This document shows positions 2,133 to 21,375 of a stretch of DNA of 22,440 bases, one piece after another. Numbering within the stretch: position 1 is the first letter of the stretch; each line of letters begins with the position of its first letter. The stretch lies in the IMG/VR virus record IMGVR_UViG_3300010883_000553, positions 1 through 22,440 of that record; one strand, given 5' to 3'. This DNA comes from a virus. The notes beneath the pieces were generated by a model. It had not been told where the DNA came from and did no database searches. It saw only the letters and a program-made list of their open reading frames with translations. A program made the position numbers and the translations under genes.

Positions 2133-2690
2133 TTATCTCTTCTTGCTAAGTGATAAAAGTCTCTTCGCAACTCTTTTTGTTACTTCATTAATGAAAGCTT
2201 CTTGATTAAATTTCTCTTCCAGAGAAACGTCGGCTGCGTCTAAAGCCTCTTCTACCTCATCCCACTCTTCAAGAGACTCTTCTCCAGCGGGATCATCTAA
2301 AGCATCCTCCGCAGTACCCAGAAGTTCCTCTTCGCCGCCCTCTTCCTCTGCGTCCAATTCTACTTCTTCACCTCCTCCAGCAGAATCGACATTAATCTCA
2401 ACACCGGTCACTGATTCTAGCGCGTCTGCGATTGCATCAACGATAGCTTCGACAGTCTCCGGCGGGACATCGCCCATGGCGTCCTCTTCGGGAGGTAGTT
2501 CATCTAGTTCAGCCCCCATCTCTTCGGGAGGTAATTCATCTAGTTCCCCCCCCATCTCTTCGAGGGTGTCTACTTCCTCAGTATCTTCCTCTCCCTTTAT
2601 TGTTTTGTCAACAAAGTTCTCCGTGAGGCCTCCAATATTAGCAAGCTTCATGAACTTGCGAACCGTTGATTCATTTAATGCCTTTTTCAT
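2133..2690 (-). CDS. Very acidic repeat protein, candidate prohead core/scaffold or other virion protein
   Basis: The product has 185 residues and is extremely Glu/Asp-rich between residues 33 and 160, with basic ends (RKFMKLANIGGL at 11-22; KRVAKRLLSLSKKR at the C-terminus). Residues 44-55 and 56-67 are near-identical 12-residue units (EEMGGELDELPP / EEMGAELDELPP) followed by a third, decayed copy. The N-terminal pattern V-R-K-F-M-K-L-A-N-I resembles the start of acidic virion or core proteins in marine phages as I recall them. A charged, low-complexity, helical protein next to a ClpP-like protease would fit a scaffold degraded during head maturation, but no sequence motif proves this. The start is ATG with AGGAG 7 bases upstream. 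The region before it (2691-2760) holds no clear sigma-70 promoter. Confidence 0.75.
   Translation of the reverse strand: MKKALNESTVRKFMKLANIGGLTENFVDKTIKGEEDTEEVDTLEEMGGELDELPPEEMGAELDELPPEEDAMGDVPPETVEAIVDAIADALESVTGVEINVDSAGGGEEVELDAEEEGGEEELLGTAEDALDDPAGEESLEEWDEVEEALDAADVSLEEKFNQEAFINEVTKRVAKRLLSLSKKR
2490..2561 (-). repeat. Tandem 36-base direct repeat inside the acidic-protein gene
   Basis: Two adjacent 36-base units (2490-2525 and 2526-2561) differ at only three positions and keep the reading frame. They encode the 12-residue EEMG-[GA]-ELDELPP repeat. The near identity at the DNA level, including synonymous positions, points to a recent duplication. A slipped-strand change in repeat number would alter the protein length by 12 residues. 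Confidence 0.9.
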
Positions 2691-3426: not shown

Positions 3427-4434
3427 TTATTTCCTTGTCAATATGTGAGTATAACTCTCATGCTGCCCTGCGGGAGTTTGACGAATAAATTCACACTTAT
3501 TTCTTAGTTCTTGGAGGGTAGAGCATCCACTGTATGAAAGGCCGCTATTGATCCCACCTTGGATATCCGCCAAAACATGTGCTACCTTTCCTTTATATGG
3601 AATAGTCGTAGATATCCCTTCCGGTGTGGAGGAACGCCCTCTCCAATCAACTTGGGCGGCCTTTGATGCCATTCCTCTATAAACTTTGTATTTCTTGCCG
3701 TCATTGCCTGTAAATATTTCTCCGGGGCTCTCTTTGGTCCCGGCAAGCATGGAGCCAATCATTACAAAGTCTGCTCCAGCGGCCAGCGCTTTAACCATGT
3801 CACCGGTTGTTCTCACTCCTCCATCTGCGATGAGAACGGCATTACTAGTTGATTTGGCGCACTCTATGATGCTTTGAAAAACCGGCATTCCACTCCCTGC
3901 TACTAATCTCGTTGAACAGATAGCTCCGGAACCAATTCCAACTCTGATGCTATTCGCGCCCCACGAAGCCAGATCATCAAAAGCCTCTCGTGTAGCCACA
4001 TTACCAGCCATGATATGAATGTCCTCATCAAATCTCTCTCTAAGGGCCGAAAGACACCTTCGCATGGTTGAATGGTGGCCGTGTGCAGTATCTACACAAA
4101 AGATTTTAGCTCCATGGTTAGAAAGATAAGTTGCTCTTTCCATAAAATCACCTGTAGCTCCAATAGCCACCGCAGGATTTCCTTCACAGGCAACAAAAAT
4201 ATCTTTTTGTTTATCGATTGTATTATATCTATGTATGACTCCAAGACCGCCCGCTTTAGCCATAGCTTTAACCATTTCGACTTCTGTAACCGTGTCCATC
4301 GGGCTGGAGATAACCGGTAGGCGGTACGTGTTGTCCGAATCTAGATCGCTTCGTGTAGAGACTTTAGACCGACTTTCTATCTCGCTATATTGAGGAACAA
4401 GTAATACATCGTCAAATGATAGTGCTTCTTTCAC
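3427..4434 (-). CDS. IMP dehydrogenase / GMP reductase family enzyme without CBS domains
   Basis: The 335-residue TIM-barrel oxidoreductase acts on purine nucleotides. Visible marks are SFDDVLLVP at the start, SSPMDTVTE near 43-51, the phosphate-binding and catalytic loop [11 protein letters not shown] with Cys173, the [26 protein letters not shown] phosphate site near 203-228, and YRGMASKAA near 252. CBS domains are missing. The active-site flap between YRGM and PEGI is short (about 10 residues) and lacks the Arg-Tyr pair typical of IMP dehydrogenase, which favours GMP reductase or a diverged IMPDH. The C-terminus ([12 protein letters not shown]) is IMPDH-like. It may adjust the IMP/GMP balance for phage DNA synthesis. 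GTG start at 4434 with GGAG 5 bases before it; it overlaps the upstream stop (GTGA). Confidence 0.87.
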
Positions 4435-5243: not shown

Positions 5244-5272
5244 ATTATAAAGTGCTATCCCAGTAATTTAAA
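5244..5272 (-). promoter_or_regulatory. Possible distal sigma-70-type promoter for the dut operon
   Basis: TTTAAA (5272-5267), 17-base spacer and a perfect TATAAT (5249-5244). The -35 half overlaps the last codons of dnaE. With the proximal promoter it would form a tandem pair in the 99-base gap between dnaE and dut. No terminator hairpin is visible in this gap, so readthrough from dnaE is also possible. Confidence 0.45.
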
Positions 5273-8200
5273 GTTGTGCCTAATAGATCTCGTAGAAAAT
5301 CCCCACTGTTCATCATAATCTAGCCTAGCCATGTAGGGACGGTTAATGTGTAGCTCATCTTCTTTTTTAACCCCCCAACATTTAATACTCGTAATAGTCG
5401 AAGTTGGATCAAGAACTCTAACGACCCAATAATCTTTACCATTCTTTGTCTTTTTTCTCACTATCTCTCTGGGAACAAACCAAGCGACCCCCAGATCGGT
5501 ATCCCACTCTCCCAAAGGAGGGACGCAGTATTCTTGTAGTTTCCTCTGGACATCTTTGTTTACAACAATATCGAATGGGAACACTCCGGTCAAATCAGAA
5601 ATATGTCTAATCCTCTCCTCGTCACTGAACTCTCCTTCCGAAGCGAAGGCTTCGATATTATTTAGAAACTTCTTTTTATTCTTCGGTCTTTCACATGCAA
5701 CTGCTCCCCAGAAGTGTTTGGCTCCAGTAAATCTCTCATCGATAAGATTATCTAAGGATCCGCATCTACAAAGCACGTCTAACACTCTTTTATTTAATTT
5801 GGAATAAGATATATCTTCATTAAACAAAAGTTCTTCTGCCGTATGAAATGGCCTATTATCTATGATTTGTTTTATTGCAGCTTCTCCTAACCCTTTTATC
5901 GAATTAAACGGCTGGATCAAACTCTTGTCGTCTTCACTAATTACCCATTTTGTTGTAGAGAGATTGATATCAATTGGTTGGATCTCATACCCCATTTTCT
6001 TAGCAATATTGATTGCCAGTTCTTTTCTGCCTTCCGGCTCGCGATCTAAGAATGCCGCTACCCACTCGGAAGGATAATAGTTAAGAAGCCATGCGCATTG
6101 ATAGCTCAATACAGAATAAGAAACCGCATGGCTTTTATTGAAACCGTATCCAGAGAAGTATTCAAAGTTAGCCCATAGTTTCTCTGCGCTAATTTTATCA
6201 ATTCCCTTCTCCATGCAACCTTCGATAAATTTCTTTTCAATTTTAATTTTTGCCGATACTGCGCTGCCAGTACCTTTCTTTGTTAACAACTTTCGTAGAG
6301 CGTTCCCCTCATCAAGGGAAATGTTATTGCCCAACTTGTGTGCCAATAAAGCAATCTGTTCTTGAAAAATAAGAAAACCATAAGTTTCTTGCGTCACTTC
6401 CCTCAACAGGGGATGTATATAATGGATATTCTCCGGACTATCTTTGGCCTCCACATAAGATTTGTCTACATTGGCACCAAGAGGGCCGGGGCGGTAGATG
6501 GAAGTAATAGCAGAAATATCGATAATGTTTTTTGGTTTTGCTTTCACACAAAACTCTTGTGCTCCTTCCTGTGTAAACTGAAACACTCCCGCAAAATTAC
6601 CCTTATGAAAAATGTTTTGATAAACGTTTTCATCATTCAAGTCAATCACATCGGGATGCAAAGTTTCATTATAATATTTTCTAATATCATTATAAGTCAC
6701 ATTTTTCATGCCATGATGTCTTTCTAAAATATGTTCGATCGCTACCTCAATCATTCTAAGGGTGCTTAATCCCAAGAAATCAAATTTAATAAATCCAAGA
6801 GGTTCTAAGTGCCGAACATTCTGGCCCTCCGACCACGGTGTTTGTACTACACCCTTATTACTAATGAGGGGCATGTACTTGTCTAGCTGTTCCCCTATGA
6901 CGACTCCGCCCGCGTGGCGACTAATTGATCTCACAGAGCCATATATAGCCTCGATATGAGTCTTGATAAATGGATATTTATCAAGATAGTTCCGGAGGGT
7001 CGTCGAAAATTCCATAGTCTCTTCGAAAGTTGGAACATATACGCCGGACTTGATTCCATGCTTTTTCTTTGCCGCAGGGGTAGCCTCTTGGATCATTTTA
7101 GATGTAACCGGATTCACCTCAGTGAACGGTACATTATAGAATTTAGAGACATCTTTAATCAAGGATCTCAGTTGTAAAGTATTATAATTGGATATAGGAA
7201 CAACCGTATCGGCCCCCCATTCATCTATTAACAAGTTTGTAAGCTTCATTCGATCACTAACATCATAGTCAATGTCCGGATAGTCCTTCGTGTCTCTTCT
7301 TATAAATCGTGAAAAGAGCAAATCATATTTAATAGGGTCTATTTGTGTGATCCCCAAAACATATGACAATAGCGATCCTGCTGCACTCCCTCTGCCGGGT
7401 CCTGCAAGCATGACATCATTGGCTCTGTCTGCAATCGCTTTCATTGTAAGGAAGTACTTGCTGAACCCTCTCTCATCGATAACTTTTATTTCCTCTTTAA
7501 GCCTATCAACGTAGTTAAGTTTTTTATGAAGATTCATATCTTTTAAACCTTCAATAGCTAACTTTGTTAATGCTCCTGTTGCGGTATGGTCAGGCGGCAC
7601 AACAAATCCAGGGAGCCGCACGGTACTATCCGGCATAAAGTCTTCGATTCTTTCAAATGCAATCTTATGAGTGTTGGTAATTGAATTTAATACTAATTCA
7701 TCATCATATTCAACGCCACACATGGAAGAATATTTTTTATAAGACTCCCACATTTGGTCTCCATTCTTTGGAAATAGCTCCATACCAAGCTCTTCTATGT
7801 CAACCGGTAATTCATCTGTCATCCATTCCGGCTTCTGTGCTCTTCCCAAAAATCCAAGACGTTTATATAGTTCTCTATCTTTCCAGGCGTCAGGTGTTGG
7901 ATAATGACTATCGGCTGTCGATATTAACTCCATGCTATATTCTTCTGCCATTTGAATAATATGTTTATTCAACTCGTGTTGTTCGGGTGCCGAGAACCAC
8001 TGAAGTTCACCGTACCATCGATCCCCAAAGATGGCCTGCATTCGTTCAGTTGTTTCTCTCATAGCCTTTAAAACAGCGTCAGAGCCGTCGTCACGATTAT
8101 CCCAATAATTACCTGCATACACGCCGCCAAGACAAGCAGACGAAGCAATAACTCCTTCATTATGTTCCTCCAATAATTTGTAATCAACACGAGGATATCG

Positions 8201-8680
8201 ATAGCGATTGTCTCCCTCATATGATTTCGAGATAAGTGCAAAAATATTGTTAAGCCCCACTTGATTCTGCGCGATGAGAATAAGGTGATTCTTTTTCTTT
8301 ATGATATTAGCTTTAGATTTAGAATCGCCTTCATTCTCAATCGACATGTTGTCCGAGTTTTTTAGTTTTCTCGCTTCCTTTTTATCCTCTTTCGCTTTCT
8401 CATATGCTTCTTTCCATTTATCAATCGATGGCAAAAAGTATGCCTCAACCCCAAAAATAGGTTTGAAATTTTTACCTTGCTCTTTCATTTTTCTTGCATG
8501 AAGGATTTGGTAAGACATGCCGTTAGCATTACCGTGGTCTGTTAAGGCCAACGCCTCACTTCCATTCTCGTAGGCGAAGTCCATGTGCTCCTGCGGGTAG
8601 CCAAGCGCATCGAAGGGTGACCCCACTACACTATGTGCGTGTAGTCCTACAAAAGGTATTGATGATTTTTTTCTCTCCAC
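5255..8680 (-). CDS. dnaE: DNA polymerase III alpha subunit (family C replicase)
   Basis: The protein has about 1141 residues, the usual DnaE length. An N-terminal PHP domain (HAHS near 14-17, TDHGN near 47-51, ADSHYPT near 256) carries a Lys/Glu-rich insertion at about 87-131. The palm has GPGRGSAAGS near 427 and the catalytic aspartates in YPDIDYD (about 469 and 471) and FDFLGLSTL (about 634). Fingers follow (YRPGPL; FIFQEQ-like LIFQEQIALLAHKLG; GYGFNKSHAVSYSVLSYQCAWL), then a helix-hairpin-helix and an OB-like C-terminus. No intein is seen. I chose GTG at 8680: GGAGG lies 5 bases before it, whereas the in-frame TTG at 8692 has no such site and would sit about 5 bases from the predicted transcript start. 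It has its own promoter. It is the probable replicase; no phage clamp or loader gene is in the window. Confidence 0.95.
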   Translation of the reverse strand: MERKKSSIPFVGLHAHSVVGSPFDALGYPQEHMDFAYENGSEALALTDHGNANGMSYQILHARKMKEQGKNFKPIFGVEAYFLPSIDKWKEAYEKAKEDKKEARKLKNSDNMSIENEGDSKSKANIIKKKNHLILIAQNQVGLNNIFALISKSYEGDNRYRYPRVDYKLLEEHNEGVIASSACLGGVYAGNYWDNRDDGSDAVLKAMRETTERMQAIFGDRWYGELQWFSAPEQHELNKHIIQMAEEYSMELISTADSHYPTPDAWKDRELYKRLGFLGRAQKPEWMTDELPVDIEELGMELFPKNGDQMWESYKKYSSMCGVEYDDELVLNSITNTHKIAFERIEDFMPDSTVRLPGFVVPPDHTATGALTKLAIEGLKDMNLHKKLNYVDRLKEEIKVIDERGFSKYFLTMKAIADRANDVMLAGPGRGSAAGSLLSYVLGITQIDPIKYDLLFSRFIRRDTKDYPDIDYDVSDRMKLTNLLIDEWGADTVVPISNYNTLQLRSLIKDVSKFYNVPFTEVNPVTSKMIQEATPAAKKKHGIKSGVYVPTFEETMEFSTTLRNYLDKYPFIKTHIEAIYGSVRSISRHAGGVVIGEQLDKYMPLISNKGVVQTPWSEGQNVRHLEPLGFIKFDFLGLSTLRMIEVAIEHILERHHGMKNVTYNDIRKYYNETLHPDVIDLNDENVYQNIFHKGNFAGVFQFTQEGAQEFCVKAKPKNIIDISAITSIYRPGPLGANVDKSYVEAKDSPENIHYIHPLLREVTQETYGFLIFQEQIALLAHKLGNNISLDEGNALRKLLTKKGTGSAVSAKIKIEKKFIEGCMEKGIDKISAEKLWANFEYFSGYGFNKSHAVSYSVLSYQCAWLLNYYPSEWVAAFLDREPEGRKELAINIAKKMGYEIQPIDINLSTTKWVISEDDKSLIQPFNSIKGLGEAAIKQIIDNRPFHTAEELLFNEDISYSKLNKRVLDVLCRCGSLDNLIDERFTGAKHFWGAVACERPKNKKKFLNNIEAFASEGEFSDEERIRHISDLTGVFPFDIVVNKDVQRKLQEYCVPPLGEWDTDLGVAWFVPREIVRKKTKNGKDYWVVRVLDPTSTITSIKCWGVKKEDELHINRPYMARLDYDEQWGFSTRSIRHNFKLLG

Positions 8681-8685
8681 AACTT

Positions 8686-8690
8686 CCTCC
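8686..8690 (-). promoter_or_regulatory. Ribosome-binding site deciding the dnaE start
   Basis: GGAGG on the minus strand, 5 bases before GTG (8680-8678). It would lie inside the coding sequence if translation began at the upstream TTG (8692-8690), so it argues for the GTG start. Confidence 0.75.
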
Positions 8691-8703
8691 AATCTCGGAC
8701 TAA

Positions 8704-8732
8704 ATCATAACAATATAGCCAGGATTTGTCAA
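8704..8732 (-). promoter_or_regulatory. Strong sigma-70-type promoter for dnaE
   Basis: TTGACA (8732-8727), 17-base spacer, TATGAT (8709-8704) with TG one base upstream (extended -10). The predicted start near 8697 gives a leader of about 17 bases to the GTG. The -35 box overlaps the stop codon of the cysteine synthase gene. Confidence 0.8.
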
Positions 8733-9595
8733 TCAAATATACTCAAATATCTTTCCCCGCGATCACACAGAAAAGTGACCACCACCCCTTCAAATTCATT
8801 GTCTTTCATCCATCGTTCAGAAGCTAGCACATTGGCCCCAGAGCTTATGCCGACAAGAAGGCCATCCTCTCTCGCCAATTTTTTCGCTCTCTCGATGGCT
8901 TCCTCGGTCGTTATGCTAATCACTTCGTCTATCTCTTCGCGGTTCGCTAAGTAGTCTCCTCCATCCCCGATCCCCTGTATGCCGTGTGCGTGGCTCTCGG
9001 CAGGCGTCACCATTACAAACTTAGGCATTGGATCTACAAATCTCTCTAGAGCCCTTTTTGTTCCCATTATAGTTCCACCAGTCCCGGCACCAGATACTAT
9101 CGCGGCAATTTCTCCTCTTCCTTTACTTATCAATTGCTTCTTTATTTCAAAACCAGTTGTCCACTCGTGACATTTAATATTATCGGGGTTAGCAAATTGG
9201 TTAGGAGAAAAATAGTTTTCATTTTCTTCTACCATTTTATCCCTTAGTTCAATAGCTCCCTCAAAATCACTTTCGCCTACTTCGATTATTTGTGCTCCGA
9301 AGAGCCTCATCATTTGTTTTCTCTCTTCACTCATGTTGCTTGGTAATATGATGATTACTTTATAGCCCTTTACCGAGCCTAGCATAGAGAAGGAGATGCC
9401 TGTGTTTCCCGACGATGCCTCAACAATAGTATCTCCCGGCTTTATTTCGCCTCGTTCTTCCGCCTTCGTTAAAACATAGTATGTCATCCTGTCTTTGATA
9501 GAACCAGTTGGACTGTATGTTTCAAGTTTTGCAAATAAATTTGGAGCCAATTGAATTAATGGTGTCTCTCCGATATAATTTAAAATATCACTCAT
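8729..9595 (-). CDS. cysK: PLP-dependent cysteine synthase (O-acetylserine sulfhydrylase family, CysK/CysM-like)
   Basis: The 288-residue protein is a fold-type II PLP enzyme that would make cysteine from O-acetylserine (or O-phosphoserine) and sulfide or thiosulfate. Seen in order: GETPLIQL near 9, PTGSIKDR near 29-36 with the Schiff-base Lys34, SSGNTGIS near 61-68 (substrate loop), GAGTGGT near 154-160 (PLP phosphate cup), HGIQGIG near 189-195, GISSGAN near 237-243, and CDRGERYLS near 277-285. This last motif is closer to CysM than to CysK. It is about 30 residues shorter than E. coli CysK, mainly at the C-terminus. All catalytic motifs are intact, so an active enzyme is likely. It overlaps the nucleotidyltransferase-like gene by 8 bases and ends the operon. 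Specificity (free sulfide or a carrier protein) cannot be read from the sequence. Confidence 0.92.
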   Translation of the reverse strand: MSDILNYIGETPLIQLAPNLFAKLETYSPTGSIKDRMTYYVLTKAEERGEIKPGDTIVEASSGNTGISFSMLGSVKGYKVIIILPSNMSEERKQMMRLFGAQIIEVGESDFEGAIELRDKMVEENENYFSPNQFANPDNIKCHEWTTGFEIKKQLISKGRGEIAAIVSGAGTGGTIMGTKRALERFVDPMPKFVMVTPAESHAHGIQGIGDGGDYLANREEIDEVISITTEEAIERAKKLAREDGLLVGISSGANVLASERWMKDNEFEGVVVTFLCDRGERYLSIFD

Positions 9596-14550: not shown

Positions 14551-15906
14551 TCACTTACTCCTTTCCTCCCATTGTTCATATACTTTCTTCATTTCTCTTT
14601 GTTGTCTCTTAACCTCACTTACTTCCATCTCATCAATAGTCTCATCAGTCGGCTCTAATACTTCTATCTTGACATTTGAGGTATCAAAGAGCAAAGGGAA
14701 GACCATTCCGTCAGGACCATTGCGATTTTTTGCAATATACATCTTGCCCGTATTCGCTACCTTATCTTCTTTAGTGCGAGAGATTGTACAAATAAAATCA
14801 GATACAAAACACTTGTTAAAGGCTTCCGATATAGCTTCCATGGTGATCACTGCTTGGTTCAATCCAGTCCTGTTAGTTTGGGAGGCTGTCCAGATCGGAC
14901 ATTCATATTCTTTTGCGATTCCTCGCAATTCCTCATAAATAGATTCTAGTTGATTCCTTTTCTCCTTATAATTTGTCATCGGCTTGAGAATATCCGCATA
15001 ATCAACTATGATTAAATCAACTTTCTTCTCTCTTTTCAAGAGCTTATCTAGAGAAGCTCTTATAGTATTTGTTGATGCAGATTTTGTTGGATATTCTTTA
15101 ATAAAAAGTTCTCCATCCACCTCTAAACAAGTTTCTTTGATTCTATCTTTAAATGCGTGGAGTCCCGATAGCGGATATCTTGTGATGCAGCTATCATATC
15201 GTTGTCCTATTATTTCCTCCGATAGCTCTAGTGTGTAATGAGCAACCGTCTTACCTTCCTTTAGAGCAGAAGCCCCTAAATGAACGAGCGCATGCGTTTT
15301 GCCCGCGCCAGCAGGGGCGACAACAACCCCCAGTTCTCCTTTCCCTAAACCGCCTTTGGTTACCTTATCTACGCGAGGCCATCCCGTGCTTACCGGATTT
15401 CTTGCCTTAAACAAGTATCTTAATTCAAAATCTTTCTTATAATCATGGCCATGATCATTATCAATACCTAACTTAACAGCTTCATCAATGACATTTTTGA
15501 TCTCTTCAAAAGAAGAACTATCTAACAGCCCCACCGAAATCATCATTGCCTCCTTTAACTTTTGCTTTTTACAAAAATCTAAAGAAGTGTCTTTGACATA
15601 CTCGGAATCCTCTATCTCTCTTATCCGAATTCGTGTAAAGAAATCACGAACTTGTTTCTTTACAAGATCGGGTTCTTCCTCTAATTCTGTTCGTAAGATA
15701 GAGTCTAATATCTCATTGCTGGGATGTACACTATACTTGTTTCTATACCCAAAAAGAAGATTTGTAAATACTTGTAGGTATTTTGATTCAAAGAACTTGA
15801 TGTCCAGCACTTCCTGCATCTGTTCCGAGAACGGCCTATCCTCCAGAATTAACTGGACAAGCTTTTCCTGAAAGTTTTTTCCATATAGAGAAAAGTCTTG
15901 TTGCAA
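14551..15906 (-). CDS. dnaB: DnaB-family replicative DNA helicase
   Basis: The 451-residue protein is a hexameric 5'-3' replicative helicase. The N-terminal 150 residues look like the DnaB N-terminal (primase-interacting) region. The RecA-like ATPase has GLGKGELGVVVAPAGAGKTH with Walker A near 198-204, the strand TVAHYTLELSEE (H1a-type Glu), Walker B LIIVDYADIL near 300, PIWTASQTNR (H3 Gln) and KNRNGPDG (H4). This architecture is also that of T4 gp41. There is no fused primase domain and no primase gene in the window. The start is TTG at 15906 with a strong AGGAGG 7 bases before it, and a perfect-type promoter just upstream, so it begins the operon dnaB-nrdJ-groES-like and onward. Confidence 0.92.
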   Translation of the reverse strand: MQQDFSLYGKNFQEKLVQLILEDRPFSEQMQEVLDIKFFESKYLQVFTNLLFGYRNKYSVHPSNEILDSILRTELEEEPDLVKKQVRDFFTRIRIREIEDSEYVKDTSLDFCKKQKLKEAMMISVGLLDSSSFEEIKNVIDEAVKLGIDNDHGHDYKKDFELRYLFKARNPVSTGWPRVDKVTKGGLGKGELGVVVAPAGAGKTHALVHLGASALKEGKTVAHYTLELSEEIIGQRYDSCITRYPLSGLHAFKDRIKETCLEVDGELFIKEYPTKSASTNTIRASLDKLLKREKKVDLIIVDYADILKPMTNYKEKRNQLESIYEELRGIAKEYECPIWTASQTNRTGLNQAVITMEAISEAFNKCFVSDFICTISRTKEDKVANTGKMYIAKNRNGPDGMVFPLLFDTSNVKIEVLEPTDETIDEMEVSEVKRQQREMKKVYEQWEERSK

Positions 15907-15928: not shown

Positions 15929-15957
15929 ACTATAGAGGATACAGACCTATTTGTCAA
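15929..15957 (-). promoter_or_regulatory. Strong sigma-70-type promoter for the dnaB-nrdJ operon
   Basis: TTGACA (15957-15952), 17-base spacer, TATAGT (15934-15929). The predicted start near 15922 leaves a 16-base leader that holds AGGAGGGG before the TTG start of dnaB. The -35 box overlaps the 3' end of the exonuclease gene. Confidence 0.85.
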
Positions 15958-16924
15958 TCAGTATCTTGTTGAACCGCTGGAAAAGATCCAGCCAGCTAGT
16001 TTCCCCAAATCCGTCCTGCCTCATCATTTTAATGATTTCGGTCTTGTTGAAGATAAGGTCGTCTTTCCCAATAATTGATCGTATTTTCATTTTAGTACTT
16101 GCACTAATACTAGGGGAATGAAGTTGCATGAGCTTATAGTTCTCTCTAATAAGATGTTCTTCTTGTAGAATTGATGAATATGCTTTAACACCGTCAACGT
16201 TTTTCCTGCAATGCTCTATAATGTCTCTTACCATATATTCTTCTTCATCTTTCATAAATGGAAAACGCTTCTTAACCGTTGCTAAACCAACTCCCCCAAC
16301 TCCTGGGAGGTTATCATTCTTATCCCCGGCGATTGCTCGTGCCAGCGCAAAATTATTAGGATGAATTCCATATTCATTAATTACTCTATTAATATTAAGA
16401 ACTTGTTCTTGAGTAGGCCTATATAAAACTGTTTCCTTGTCTAAGATTTGTATAAAATCTTTATCGCTTGAAACTACAATCTTTTGCCAGCCTGCGTAAT
16501 CTTCTAATTTGGTAGCGAATGCTATAAGGTCATCTGCCTCTATACTCTCGAACATTAACTGAGGTACCGGCATGTAACTTAAATATTCCACAAGTCTTGT
16601 TTGCTGCCAGACTTTATTTTGGAGTTCTTGATTCTCTGTCAAATTCCTTATAGAACGATTTAATCGAATAGGGTTTCTACCTTCTTTATAATTCTTATTG
16701 ATGCTCTTTCTGCGCCTGGACCCTCCGGCACCGTCCCAACAAATAACAATCCTGTCAGGTTTTATATCGCGGACGAGCTTTTGTAAAATTTTTAAAAACC
16801 CTTTCATGCCGCCAATCGGTTGCCCATTGGTGGATAAAGAAGGATCTACTATATAGGCTCGATAATAGGAATTCAGAGCGTCTATAAATAATACTCTTTT
16901 AGTCTTTTTCTTGGAGCTTGTCAA
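15947..16924 (-). CDS. 5'-3' exonuclease / flap endonuclease
   Basis: The 325-residue enzyme is of the PIN-like FEN family (T4 RNase H, T5 exonuclease, Pol I 5'-nuclease). Metal-binding acidic residues are visible: Asp15 in FIDALNSYY, Asp64 in CWDGAGG, Glu129/Asp131/Asp132 in IEADD, Asp154 and Asp156 in SSDKDF, and Asp201/Asp204 in GDKNDNLPGVGGVG, which is also the start of the helix-3-turn motif. It removes RNA primers and 5' flaps during lagging-strand synthesis. In Pol I this activity is fused to the polymerase; here it is a separate gene, while the family A polymerase in this phage lacks it. The start appears to be TTG at 16924, overlapping the upstream gene by 26 bases; no other start codon lies before the first conserved strand. 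Confidence 0.92.
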   Translation of the reverse strand: MTSSKKKTKRVLFIDALNSYYRAYIVDPSLSTNGQPIGGMKGFLKILQKLVRDIKPDRIVICWDGAGGSRRRKSINKNYKEGRNPIRLNRSIRNLTENQELQNKVWQQTRLVEYLSYMPVPQLMFESIEADDLIAFATKLEDYAGWQKIVVSSDKDFIQILDKETVLYRPTQEQVLNINRVINEYGIHPNNFALARAIAGDKNDNLPGVGGVGLATVKKRFPFMKDEEEYMVRDIIEHCRKNVDGVKAYSSILQEEHLIRENYKLMQLHSPSISASTKMKIRSIIGKDDLIFNKTEIIKMMRQDGFGETSWLDLFQRFNKILIDK

Positions 16925-17286: not shown

Positions 17287-18408
17287 CTATGGATCAACAT
17301 TGTAAAAGTCTGAGGCGTCTCCTGTCCTATTGTGGAACTTAAGAATAATTTCTTCTTCCATGATTTCAAGAACGCGATTCTTGAATTTTTCATCTTTTAA
17401 TTTTTCGTTCCAGCCAGCGGATTGAAACTTTTCTTCGGTACCATCCCCATACGAAATCGAATACCATGGTCCCCGAGAGGCGAAGTGCTCAGAAGATTTG
17501 ATAGCCTCAAGCCAACTTTCCTCATCCTGTACTCTTACTTCGTCGCCCCATAGGATCTTAAAAGTACATTCACGAGCTTGAGTCCCGAACTTGGACTTCT
17601 CAAGTTTTGCTTTGATTTCCGAACCAATTCTAAATCCATTGTCGTCTTTTACAAACGAAGCTTTAGATTTACGTCCTGTTAACCATATGCGCAAATCATA
17701 TGCATAATGCATGGCCTTCCCTCCCGGTGTGAAATAGGGGGTAGTCATTGCTTCGGCCACATTAGACGTAATGTTGGTCTTAAGCTGGTTCAGGACAAGA
17801 AATGTGGCCTTCGCGTTGGCAAGCGGTATAGTTAATTTTGCCATGCCCTTAGACAAAATACGAGGCTTTACAGCCATGGACGAGAGTGGATTGAAATCCC
17901 CCTCGATATCAGTAATTGCCGGGGTCAGCGCGAGACTATCCCAGATAAACAACATTTTATTTTGGTTGCTACCCAACAACTCTTCTATAGTCTCAAGCAC
18001 AAACTCCACACTCTCCGCTTGAATATAAAGCACTTTTTCTAAATCGCACCCAGCCTTTGACAAGAACTCCGGGTCTATCGCCGATTCCGAGTCAAAATAA
18101 ATAACATCTATATCTTGCTTCTGGGCGTTTGCCGCGATCATAGCCGCAACATATGATTTTCCCGTGGATTCCAACCCGGCAATCTCTGTAATTTTACCTA
18201 TCGGTATTCCCGCCATCCTGCCTTTGCAGATGATTGAGTCCAGCCATCTAGAGCCGGTTGGTATCCACCCCACTACTTGGGTTGGATTGTCTTGTGTCAA
18301 ATTGTAGGCCAGATCGTATCCCGCTTTGCGATTAATAATTTTACGCATCTCGTCCATACTTAATCGACCTAAATCGCTATTAGTTTCTTTTTTGCTGCGC
18401 CTTGACAT
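17287..18408 (-). CDS. recA: RecA/UvsX-family recombinase
   Basis: The 373-residue protein is a strand-exchange ATPase that forms filaments on ssDNA for recombination and recombination-dependent replication. The Walker A is GLESTGKS (78-85), closer to RecA (G-P-E-S-S-G-K-T) than to T4 UvsX. VIYFDSESAIDPEF follows near 105-119. Walker B is MLFIWDSLAL near 152-161. A loop-2-like region (NQLKTNITSN...TPGGKAMHYAYDLRIWL) matches RecA's N-Q-x-R-x-K and T-x-G-G-x-A-L-x-F-x-x-x-x-R-x-x-V. The C-terminal 90 residues diverge from bacterial RecA. ATG start with AGGA 7 bases before it. It is 84 bases downstream of ssb; the gap holds a large perfect inverted repeat and no convincing separate promoter. Confidence 0.9.
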   Translation of the reverse strand: MSRRSKKETNSDLGRLSMDEMRKIINRKAGYDLAYNLTQDNPTQVVGWIPTGSRWLDSIICKGRMAGIPIGKITEIAGLESTGKSYVAAMIAANAQKQDIDVIYFDSESAIDPEFLSKAGCDLEKVLYIQAESVEFVLETIEELLGSNQNKMLFIWDSLALTPAITDIEGDFNPLSSMAVKPRILSKGMAKLTIPLANAKATFLVLNQLKTNITSNVAEAMTTPYFTPGGKAMHYAYDLRIWLTGRKSKASFVKDDNGFRIGSEIKAKLEKSKFGTQARECTFKILWGDEVRVQDEESWLEAIKSSEHFASRGPWYSISYGDGTEEKFQSAGWNEKLKDEKFKNRVLEIMEEEIILKFHNRTGDASDFYNVDP

Positions 18409-18492: not shown

Positions 18493-19245
18493 CTATGAGT
18501 TTACTAACTCATTAAAGGCACTATCGACAGAATTGTCTTCACTAGTGAGGGTAGCCTCAGTCGTGCTAGAGGTCGCTGCCTCAGACAACTCTTCATCGAT
18601 GCTAGTCATATAGTCATGAAGCATCTTCCCGACATCATCGGGAGTTGGCCGCACAAAAAGCGTTGTCACATCCGGAATTGCATCCAAAAGACGCCCAGCC
18701 TCGTCGCTGTCTTCTACCAACGGAGAAGTGCGGCGGCGAGGAGTGATGGTAGTCTGCGGAAATTGCGCCCCTGCGGGCTTCCCATAGGAAATAACCAAAT
18801 CTGTTCCGCTGTCGACATCAGTGATATCGCCATAATCAGGATTGAGAACTAAGTTCAGTAACTCCTGATACGCGGTCCGTCCGAATCCCCAAATGCGGAC
18901 ACCTTGCTCTTCCTCTCCTCTCACGAGGACCGGAGCGAAAAAGCGCTGTCTGGCGCTAAGGTTCTTCGCCATCTTGACGCTATCCGGATCTCCCTGCTTA
19001 TAGAGGGTGCGGACGAAATCGTCAAGAGGACACTCATCGCCATAATTCTTCTTCGGGCTCAAAAACGGAGTGTTGTTTCCAAGATTATAGTGGAACCAAA
19101 ACTCCTTAAATGGATCACCATCAGGCGTGGAAACAATACGAATTGTCTGCTCGCCATCCTTCGGTCGCCAAAAGTTATTCTTGTCATTGCCCTTGCGATT
19201 CAAGGTCGCCAACTTATCTTTCATCTTAGACATATCAATACCCAT
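18493..19245 (-). CDS. Single-stranded DNA-binding protein, T4 gp32-like
   Basis: The 250-residue protein begins with a short basic N-terminus (MSKMKDKLATLNRKGND), followed by an OB-like core (NFWRPKDGEQTIRIVSTPDGDPFKEFWFHYNLG, then SARQRFFAPVLVRGE and RIWGFGRTAYQELLNLV), and ends in an acidic, Ser/Thr-rich tail (about 215-250, ending AFNELVNS). This is the layout of T4 gp32: a cooperative N-terminus, the ssDNA-binding core, and an acidic tail that contacts replication proteins. The gp32 zinc ligands are not evident, since only one Cys (near residue 73) is present. It coats ssDNA for the helicase, replicase and RecA encoded nearby. ATG with AAGGAG upstream, behind a strong promoter and a 64-base leader. 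Confidence 0.85.
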   Translation of the reverse strand: MGIDMSKMKDKLATLNRKGNDKNNFWRPKDGEQTIRIVSTPDGDPFKEFWFHYNLGNNTPFLSPKKNYGDECPLDDFVRTLYKQGDPDSVKMAKNLSARQRFFAPVLVRGEEEQGVRIWGFGRTAYQELLNLVLNPDYGDITDVDSGTDLVISYGKPAGAQFPQTTITPRRRTSPLVEDSDEAGRLLDAIPDVTTLFVRPTPDDVGKMLHDYMTSIDEELSEAATSSTTEATLTSEDNSVDSAFNELVNS

Positions 19246-19345: not shown

Positions 19346-20191
19346 CTATAAATCAATTTTTTGTTCTTGGATGTATGAACAATGAGCCGTACAGTAAGCG
19401 TAATCCTGTTCATATTCAGTAGGATAAACCCCGAATGATGCACGTAAATTTTCATCATTTTTTTCTTTAACCGCAGTGGTTAATTTACGAAGAAGTGTCC
19501 CGTCCGTCTTCAGCCGTTCATTATTAATAGCGTAGTAAAGGACGATCTCCCTAGGATATTCGAGATCATAAAAATACTTCATATCCCCGCTATTAATATC
19601 AGCCAGACCAATAGAAGAAATCCTGCATACATCAAGAGAGTCTCCAAACGTGTTTATTACTGGCTCCGTATTCCGGCAGACATTGAGCATATGGATTGTG
19701 GAAACCAGCAATTGATTTATTTTCTCGTAATACCCAATAACCGGGACGTCACCAAGAGCCTGCTCTACTTTTGAGTTTTCTATAATATATAATCGCTCTA
19801 AAAGCGCCGATCTCGCGTACTGTTGCAGGATGTTAAAGACTACGTTATGCTGCTTTTCTTTGATTTCCGACAACAAAGAGGTGTCCGGCTTCACATATAA
19901 TACATGAATAGGATGAGCTTTCAACTTTTCTAGAATGCGCAAGACCGCGCCGGAAATATCTCCCGATCCTCCTATAACGAAGAGAATGGGTCCACTTATT
20001 TTCTCAAAAAATGCTTTTTTTAATCTTGTTTTTGCTTCGTAGTCTTCATGTGTTTTTTGAGGAGCGATATAAAGATAATTCTCTTCATTGCTCTTTTTAG
20101 AATTTATTTTATATACATCATATTGCGGGTATGTGCCGAAGCATTCCGCAATCGCACAGCCAGCATCTCCTAACCCAATAATTGTTTCCAT
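19346..20191 (-). CDS. Tubulin/FtsZ superfamily GTPase-like protein
   Basis: The 281-residue protein has the tubulin/FtsZ layout. IIGLGDAGCAIAECF (4-18) matches the first nucleotide loop (G-x-G-x-A/G-G). YKINSKK (27-33) matches the FtsZ I-N-T-D strand. FVIGGSGDISGAVLRILEKL (71-90) matches the tubulin signature G-G-G-T-G-[ST]-G, degenerate but with the following helix. LYVKP (98-102) follows, then the IIEN strand (136-139) and YYEKINQLLVSTIHMLN (154-170), which corresponds to the H7 core helix. INTFGDSLDVCRI (179-191) resembles the catalytic T7 loop (FtsZ L-I-N-x-D-F-A-D-V). It is shorter than PhuZ or FtsZ. It might form filaments that position phage DNA or capsids, or act on host division; both are inferences. 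It shares one base with the polymerase stop (TAATG), so the two are coupled. Confidence 0.7.
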   Translation of the reverse strand: METIIGLGDAGCAIAECFGTYPQYDVYKINSKKSNEENYLYIAPQKTHEDYEAKTRLKKAFFEKISGPILFVIGGSGDISGAVLRILEKLKAHPIHVLYVKPDTSLLSEIKEKQHNVVFNILQQYARSALLERLYIIENSKVEQALGDVPVIGYYEKINQLLVSTIHMLNVCRNTEPVINTFGDSLDVCRISSIGLADINSGDMKYFYDLEYPREIVLYYAINNERLKTDGTLLRKLTTAVKEKNDENLRASFGVYPTEYEQDYAYCTAHCSYIQEQKIDL

Positions 20192-21375
20192 TATAACCTC
20201 TTTGTTTTCATGGAGCCGTAATTCTTCCCCACACTCATGTTTATTTTGAATTCCCCCAGATCCGTAGCTGAGAACACTCCAACAATCTCATTAAGAAGAT
20301 GTTTGTCCTCCATGCTAAAATCGATAACCAACGAATCATGTACTGAAAAGGCCACGTAAGACTTCTTCTCTTTCAAAACATTCGCTACTTTTATCATCAC
20401 CCGCAAGAACAGATCGCTTGTAGTGCTCTGCACAATATAATTGAACGCGCGCCTGGTGTCTACTTCAATTCGTCGATCAAAGGGGGTGATAACTTCTTGG
20501 CCATTAAAATATTTATCCGTAATCTTAGTTCTATGGAATATTCGCTCTAGAGTATCGTTCTTCGCAACAGGGTTATATAGCCATGCAAAGACTTTTTTCT
20601 TAATTTCATCACGGGTCTCGTCAGAGGTAAACACTTCTTTAGCTATCCATTCGTGAATATCCTGATCTGGTTGTTCAACCCCGGAGAGAGCCAGGACCGT
20701 GCGCAATTCTGCCGCATTAAAATCTAATTCAATAAAGAGATCGTTGTTTGGTTTGATGACAGACCTAAAATCCTTATCAATCGTTAAAATAGGGAACGAA
20801 TTCTTCTTGGTAGTTAATCGACCCGTGCGCGTTCCTACAATATCATAATCGACATAGGGCGAGAGTATATTGATCTTTTTAAGGAATGCGCGAGTCTTTG
20901 GCTTGGCAAAAATTTTCTTTACCCCATTGATATCGATATTTAATTTTCGATATTTAATATCGTGTAAAACAGCAGTAATATCTCGCAAGAAATCGTAATT
21001 GTTTGGTTTCTCGTAGTTGTCAAATACATGCTGTGTGATCTGGTTCTTTACATCACAGTATTCAAGCAAAAACCGATCTTGAACTAGATCAAAAAAACAA
21101 AGATTATTCATATCAACGAGAGCTATCCCAAATGAGCGTTGAAAGGCTTTTAACTTCTTATTGATGCTCTCCCACCTATCCTTCAAACGAGGCGGACAGG
21201 CATCATCTAAAGAGTACCCTACGCAATATAAATTAGCGTATTCTACATCCCCGGAGACATAGGGGACATAATTCCAAGTTTTAGTGAGGCCGACAGGAAT
21301 ATCCTCAAGATTGAGAGAACCTTCCGAGTAGACTGCAACACACTGGTTTTTGTCGTCAAGCGTTTGGAATAGCAT
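20191..21375 (-). CDS. Minimal family A DNA polymerase-like protein
   Basis: The 394-residue protein covers only the polymerase domain of the Pol I family. GTRTGRLTTKKNSFP (181-195) matches the T-x-T-G-R-L-S-S-x-x-P segment. Motif A is ELDFNAAELR (216-225, catalytic Asp218). The motif B helix has Arg255, Lys259, Phe263 and Tyr267 with correct spacing, but Asn replaces the Gly after Tyr. FNYIVQSTTSDLFLRVM (311-327) matches the N-x-x-I-Q-G-T-A-A-D segment. Motif C is SVHDSLVID, with Asp347 but Ser348 instead of the usual Glu. No 3'-5' exonuclease motif (DxE) is seen in the first 150 residues, and no 5' nuclease. With DnaE also encoded, it may fill gaps, work with the separate flap endonuclease, or be translesion-type. 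ATG immediately follows the upstream stop. Confidence 0.85.
   Translation of the reverse strand: MLFQTLDDKNQCVAVYSEGSLNLEDIPVGLTKTWNYVPYVSGDVEYANLYCVGYSLDDACPPRLKDRWESINKKLKAFQRSFGIALVDMNNLCFFDLVQDRFLLEYCDVKNQITQHVFDNYEKPNNYDFLRDITAVLHDIKYRKLNIDINGVKKIFAKPKTRAFLKKINILSPYVDYDIVGTRTGRLTTKKNSFPILTIDKDFRSVIKPNNDLFIELDFNAAELRTVLALSGVEQPDQDIHEWIAKEVFTSDETRDEIKKKVFAWLYNPVAKNDTLERIFHRTKITDKYFNGQEVITPFDRRIEVDTRRAFNYIVQSTTSDLFLRVMIKVANVLKEKKSYVAFSVHDSLVIDFSMEDKHLLNEIVGVFSATDLGEFKINMSVGKNYGSMKTKRL

Follow-up and report, generated by a model that had tools for sequence, protein, structure and literature searches.

The question raised by this locus is what a tubulin-like protein does among the DNA replication genes of a phage. 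The window, i.e. the whole stretch of 22,440 nucleotides that was analysed, derives from an uncultured T4-like virus of bacteria, and an initial annotation made from its letters had placed at 19346-20191 an open reading frame of 281 amino acids, encoding a tubulin/FtsZ-like protein. These coordinates are exact (minus strand), and the sequence features that had been listed for the protein are all present in the reading frame. Its start codon overlaps the stop codon of the upstream gene for a small DNA polymerase-like protein in the sequence TAATG (junction, TTATAATGGAA). Comparison with a 95% identical relative gave a dS of 0.325 and a dN of 0.026; at a dN/dS of about 0.08, the reading frame is regarded as a real gene under strong purifying selection. 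It is conserved in more than 100 further distinct loci and is single-copy in all seven large contigs tested, and a second tubulin was not recognised (PF00091 profile) in the contigs of this lineage that were tested.

Single-sequence searches with the window protein gave no match to any sequence family of Pfam, PHROGs or the PDB, and an IMG/VR scan with it yielded six close relatives. When the neighbouring gp32-like single-strand DNA binding protein (SSB) was used for the IMG/VR search instead, 80 loci were obtained; a tubulin-like homologue, with identities down to 26%, was present in 58 of the 61 SSB-found loci that have more than 1.2 kb of sequence upstream of the SSB gene. In loci L064, L079 and L097, other reading frames lie directly upstream of the SSB gene, and neither the tubulin-like gene nor the polymerase gene was recognised in the available sequence; these loci are therefore not counted as losses. 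Further scans used tubulin-like sub-alignments or members as query, and hence carry no SSB bias; 35, 80 and 28 loci were among the matches listed, and 372 candidates were confirmed from one scan alone. The alignment for structure modelling comprises 61 distinct full-length members, and motifs were counted in 80 members. Nine of the 61 members gave a weak match to the Pfam Tubulin profile (PF00091; best E 0.011), with the curated cut-off not reached and the window protein itself without a match. For cultured phages, tblastn with four family members against 50,697 phage records gave no relative, nor did a scan of GTDB genome contigs with one member as query; a literature search that covered few subscription papers gave no description of the family.

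By its predicted structure, the protein has the fold of the tubulin/FtsZ structural superfamily. The structure prediction and structural search that had been proposed with the initial annotation gave a confident model, which CetZ, TubZ and FtsZ match over its full length. The AlphaFold2 model (61-sequence alignment, no templates) reached a pLDDT of 93.5 and a pTM of 0.91; a first run with seven close relatives had a pLDDT of 46, and its structural matches were already tubulins. The model contains a Rossmann-like GTPase domain, the core helix H7 and a second alpha/beta domain. With elements named as in FtsZ, it comprises S1 (residues 2-7), H1 (8-18), S2 (24-30), S3 (69-74), H3 (78-89), S4 (95-101), H4 (109-127), S5 (133-138) and H7 (154-173), followed by a compact second domain; the order of strands and helices is that of FtsZ, and the long core helix that had been noticed in the sequence corresponds to residues 154-173 of the model. 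Residues 174-214 show neither of the FtsZ helices H8 and H9, and the FtsA/ZipA-binding C-terminal peptide is absent, the chain ending about 10 residues past the last strand in the model.

In a Foldseek search against the PDB, the top 50 matches were exclusively FtsZ and TubZ (best E 9e-14, TM 0.72). With VIA-align, the best match was the archaeal, cellular CetZ (Z 24.2, rmsd 2.9 A over 256 residues; 13% identity), followed by TubZ (Z about 22 over 269-275 residues) and by tubulin and FtsZ (Z about 21); these matches (Z 20.9-24.2) extend over the whole chain, residues 1-278. The top viral structural match in BFVD is A0A6J5RW92, a protein of 452 aa from an uncultured Caudovirales phage that is labelled 'FtsZ Cell division GTPase' (E 1.1e-13, TM 0.76, 17% identity). 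The independent sequence evidence is weaker than the structural evidence, but agrees with it: hhalign against an FtsZ alignment gave an E of 4.5e-4 over 159 columns, in the register of the fold, and against PhuZ an E of 4.7e-5, and the control with an unrelated SSB gave 0.048 over 10 columns. This profile-profile comparison, likewise proposed beforehand, is thus in weak agreement and in the same register. If the protein were instead an NAD(P)-binding protein of Rossmann type (TrkA_N or dehydrogenase-like), its tubulin likeness would stem from the shared Rossmann core only; this would account for the weak matches to TrkA_N, seen in 15 of 61 members with a best E of 0.0019, and to alcohol dehydrogenase. 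The dehydrogenase matches listed are, however, confined to N-terminal segments, whereas the tubulin match spans residues 1-278 including H7 and the second domain at Z >20, and the hhalign alignment with FtsZ runs on through T6 into H7. The tubulin assignment is preferred because the second domain and H7 are present, and the NAD(P)-binding alternative is extremely improbable.

For the nucleotide pocket, the residues on the guanine side are kept according to the family alignment, and nucleotide binding itself is predicted. All motifs of the protein are given on the minus strand. The T1-type Gly loop IGLGDAGCA (residues 5-13; 20153..20179), which includes the first-loop GLGDAG (residues 6-11), has the consensus IGLGxAGCN and aligns with IGVGGGGGN of FtsZ; positions 6 and 8 are both Gly in 76/80 members. 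An I-N-x-K strand had also been noticed, and KINSK indeed ends the second strand (residues 28-32), but its Asn is mostly Asp across the members. N139 (19775..19777) aligns by hhalign with the T6 Asn of FtsZ (N165 in E. coli), a guanine contact, and is Asn in 54 of 61 members. The core helix H7 (19673..19732), placed by the model and the FtsZ alignment, carries Y155 and N159, which in the hhalign register correspond to F182 and N186 of E. coli FtsZ; their Y-x3-N spacing is that of the base contacts Y224 and N228 of tubulin. Residues 139 and 159 are both Asn in 73/80 members, and in 65/80 there is an aromatic residue at 155 in addition. The hallmark of the family is an almost invariant patch, QQYARS (residues 123-128; 19808..19825), located where H4 ends; Q123, R127 and S128 are invariant in 61/61 members (weighted frequency 1.0 in 80); Q123-x-Y-x-R-S128 is the most conserved stretch of the family.

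On the phosphate side, the T3, T4 and T7 elements are degenerate in the family, as judged from the alignments. The GAGANP motif of the FtsZ T3 loop is absent, and its position is taken by the conserved motif EDYE (residues 49-52; 20036..20047; E49 in 55, Y51 in 57 and E52 in 55 of 61 members). The T4 signature loop is represented by GGSGDISGA (residues 74-82; 19946..19972); the canonical form [GA]GGT[GS][TS]G (GGGTGTG-type) was found in 0/80 members, and G-x4-[ST]-G in the T4 region in 49/80. DSLDV (residues 184-188; 19628..19642) had been proposed to mirror the T7 loop of FtsZ. This proposal fails: the motif is not conserved, since DxxD occurs at the T7 position in 3/80 members only, with residues 184 and 187 both acidic in 14/80, and in the model H7 is followed by the next strand without an intervening H8. 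As a working T7 loop, DSLDV was rejected, the pattern being not above chance. In the comparison sets, NxDxxD is present in 6/6 FtsZ, and D201 and D204 are invariant in seven PhuZ sequences that share 23-37% identity. The earlier doubt as to whether GTP is hydrolysed is supported, since the phosphate loops are degenerate; some hydrolysis may still take place, since G75 and, in many members, [ST]G are retained in T4, and position 187, taken by itself, is acidic in 55/80 members.

In jumbo or plasmid-like phages, the tubulins PhuZ and TubZ form dynamic filaments. By analogy, the protein could be a dynamic cytoskeletal GTPase that polymerises to position or segregate replication centres, as its full tubulin fold including the C-terminal domain, its base pocket and the position of its gene among replication genes would allow. 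We consider such a role unlikely: the T3 motif is missing, T4 is degenerate, the DxxD pair retained by the PhuZ and FtsZ sets is unconserved, and H8 is absent in the model. PhuZ of the phiKZ-like nucleus-forming jumbo phages, which has been reported to form dynamic filaments (PMC4244570) despite a variant T4 loop of its own, is likewise a phage-encoded tubulin fold, and its likeness by hhalign is in the N-terminal part and fits distant homology only. PhuZ keeps the T7 DxxD pair and a T3-region GxG, whereas the present family is without both, is shorter, and lies in a T4-type replication operon where it overlaps a polymerase gene. Chimallin gave no match in five large contigs, in a search that also missed two of four PhuZ-bearing phages. 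In comparison to TubZ of type III plasmid/phage partition, the protein is without the long C-terminal extension and its gene has replication genes as neighbours; neither the window nor locus L036 has tubC-like tandem repeats close to the gene, and in locus L063 there is one 3-copy array of 21 nt about 1.2 kb upstream of the gene. FtsZ shares with the protein the fold, an in-register profile alignment and the guanine-contact Asn, but the protein lacks GAGANP, GGGTGTG, NxDxxD and the FtsA/ZipA-binding tail, as well as H8 and H9 in the model. The protein should be labelled a divergent tubulin-superfamily homologue, and not assigned to FtsZ, PhuZ or TubZ.

The following replication genes of the window are encoded on the minus strand. 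The gene that overlaps the tubulin-like gene (20191..21375) encodes a small family-A DNA polymerase-like protein of 394 aa (PF00476, E=9e-17), in which Asp218, Lys259, Tyr267 and Asp347, presumed to be catalytic, are invariant in an 8-sequence alignment, and in which no exonuclease domain was recognised. On the other side follow genes for the gp32-like SSB (18493..19245; PF08804, E=1.5e-9; phrog_1192), a RecA/UvsX recombinase (17287..18408; PF00154, E=2e-35), a 5'-3' exonuclease (15947..16924; PF02739), a DnaB-like replicative helicase (14551..15906; PF03796) and a DnaE-type DNA polymerase III alpha of 1145 aa (5255..8692; PF07733, PF17657, PF02811). The window phage thus has two DNA polymerases, DnaE and the 394-aa family-A protein. 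DnaE is likely the replicative polymerase, and the small polymerase is probably not the main one, since the lineage also carries DnaE; the small polymerase is also encoded by phages that have a full PolA or a PolB as their main polymerase. A T4-type gp23 capsid protein is encoded in 7/7 contigs of the lineage tested. The sliding clamp profile PF02916 gave no match anywhere searched, which is uninformative.

The gene order polymerase-tubulin-SSB-recombinase is conserved. In counts taken from loci that were found with the tubulin-like protein itself, the small polymerase gene lies upstream of each of the 94 distinct genes for which the upstream sequence is long enough, with an in-frame start no more than 60 nt from the polymerase stop in 77 of the 94 (most commonly a 4-nt overlap), and the SSB gene is downstream in 102/103, though in 45 of these not directly adjacent and more than 250 nt away; such adjacency and coupling is evidence of co-expression, not of binding. 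The link to the polymerase is therefore tighter than that to the SSB. Inserted reading frames of 290-583 aa lie between the tubulin-like and SSB genes in loci L117, L124-L128, L142 and L143, and none of them lies between the polymerase and the tubulin-like gene. Together with fold and profile comparison, this synteny strongly supports the initial description of a short, divergent, polymerase-coupled protein of the tubulin/FtsZ type.

The related operons of Flavobacterium phage immuto and Microcystis phage Mel-JY01 have no tubulin-like gene, and carry a full PolA or a PolB in place of DnaE. Loci L014, L015 and L016, related operons that lack the tubulin-like gene, encode a protein of 129-151 aa after the small polymerase (L014, 1346-1801; L015, 9374-9763; L016, 5813-6256), directly in L014 and L016 and about 1.5 kb downstream in L015; these small proteins share an HRKK-x-x-NT-x-YTIN-[SA]-LN-like motif and have no confident PHROGs family.

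The coupling bears on two further alternatives. Firstly, the protein might cap or poison host FtsZ through subunit mimicry, for which there is precedent of FtsZ inhibition in other phages (T7 Gp0.4, T5 Hdi) and for which an FtsZ-like fold with an altered T7 region could bind one filament end. These known inhibitors are, however, small and unrelated proteins, and a near-fixed coupling to polymerase and SSB across very divergent phages is unexpected for a host-takeover protein; the genomic context favours a role in replication, and FtsZ inhibition appears quite improbable. Secondly, the protein might serve the DnaE replisome or the ribonucleotide pathway, rather than the small polymerase, as a nucleotide sensor or allosteric cofactor. 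The conserved base pocket would fit, as would the genes of this phage for an IMP dehydrogenase/GMP reductase-like protein, RNR and dUTPase, but it is with the small polymerase, and not with dnaE, that the gene is tightly coupled, and this option is left with a low probability as well. The homologue of IMP dehydrogenase/GMP reductase is encoded at 3427-4434 (PF00478, E 2e-101). Other features of the window comprise a PLP-dependent enzyme of the cysteine synthase type within the replication region (8729-9595; PF00291) and a tandem repeat (2484-2562; 36-nt unit, 2.2 copies) inside a Glu/Asp-rich acidic reading frame (2133-2690, minus strand).

The reading we prefer, with a probability of roughly 0.48, is that this compact, divergent tubulin relative is an accessory factor of phage replication/recombination that is nucleotide-bound and non-cycling, and that works with the small polymerase and the SSB. 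The exonuclease-less family-A polymerase and the tubulin-like protein would be made together from their overlapping genes, beside the gp32-like SSB and the UvsX-like recombinase. The protein would bind guanine (or a related) nucleotide without passing through a normal cycle of GTP hydrolysis, and may therefore act as a nucleotide-bound subunit or static oligomer, not as a dynamic spindle. Contacts to the small polymerase and/or the SSB would be made through the EYE and QxYxRS motifs, both of them specific to the family, and the tubulin-like protein would scaffold these partners at phage replication sites; we infer such a physical role in replication or recombination. More tentatively, and rather doubtful at present, this may be the first tubulin-superfamily protein that has turned into a dedicated DNA polymerase/SSB subunit, i.e. 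a pseudo-GTPase of a large uncultured T4-like lineage with its base pocket kept and its hydrolysis and T7 machinery lost. With a gene this small and with specific partners predicted (PolA-like protein, SSB), the idea lends itself to direct testing.

The tubulin fold seen here is much more reduced than that of PhuZ or TubZ, and T4-type phages from the environment have conserved it in fixed association with a polymerase gene; hundreds of related viruses carry the gene, and that it is almost always joined to the polymerase gene and beside replication genes suggests that a tubulin relative was recruited into DNA copying. If the protein is indeed a replisome scaffold or pseudo-GTPase, the tubulin fold would have been put to a new use, and its function in the absence of a hydrolytic cycle could be learned from this case.
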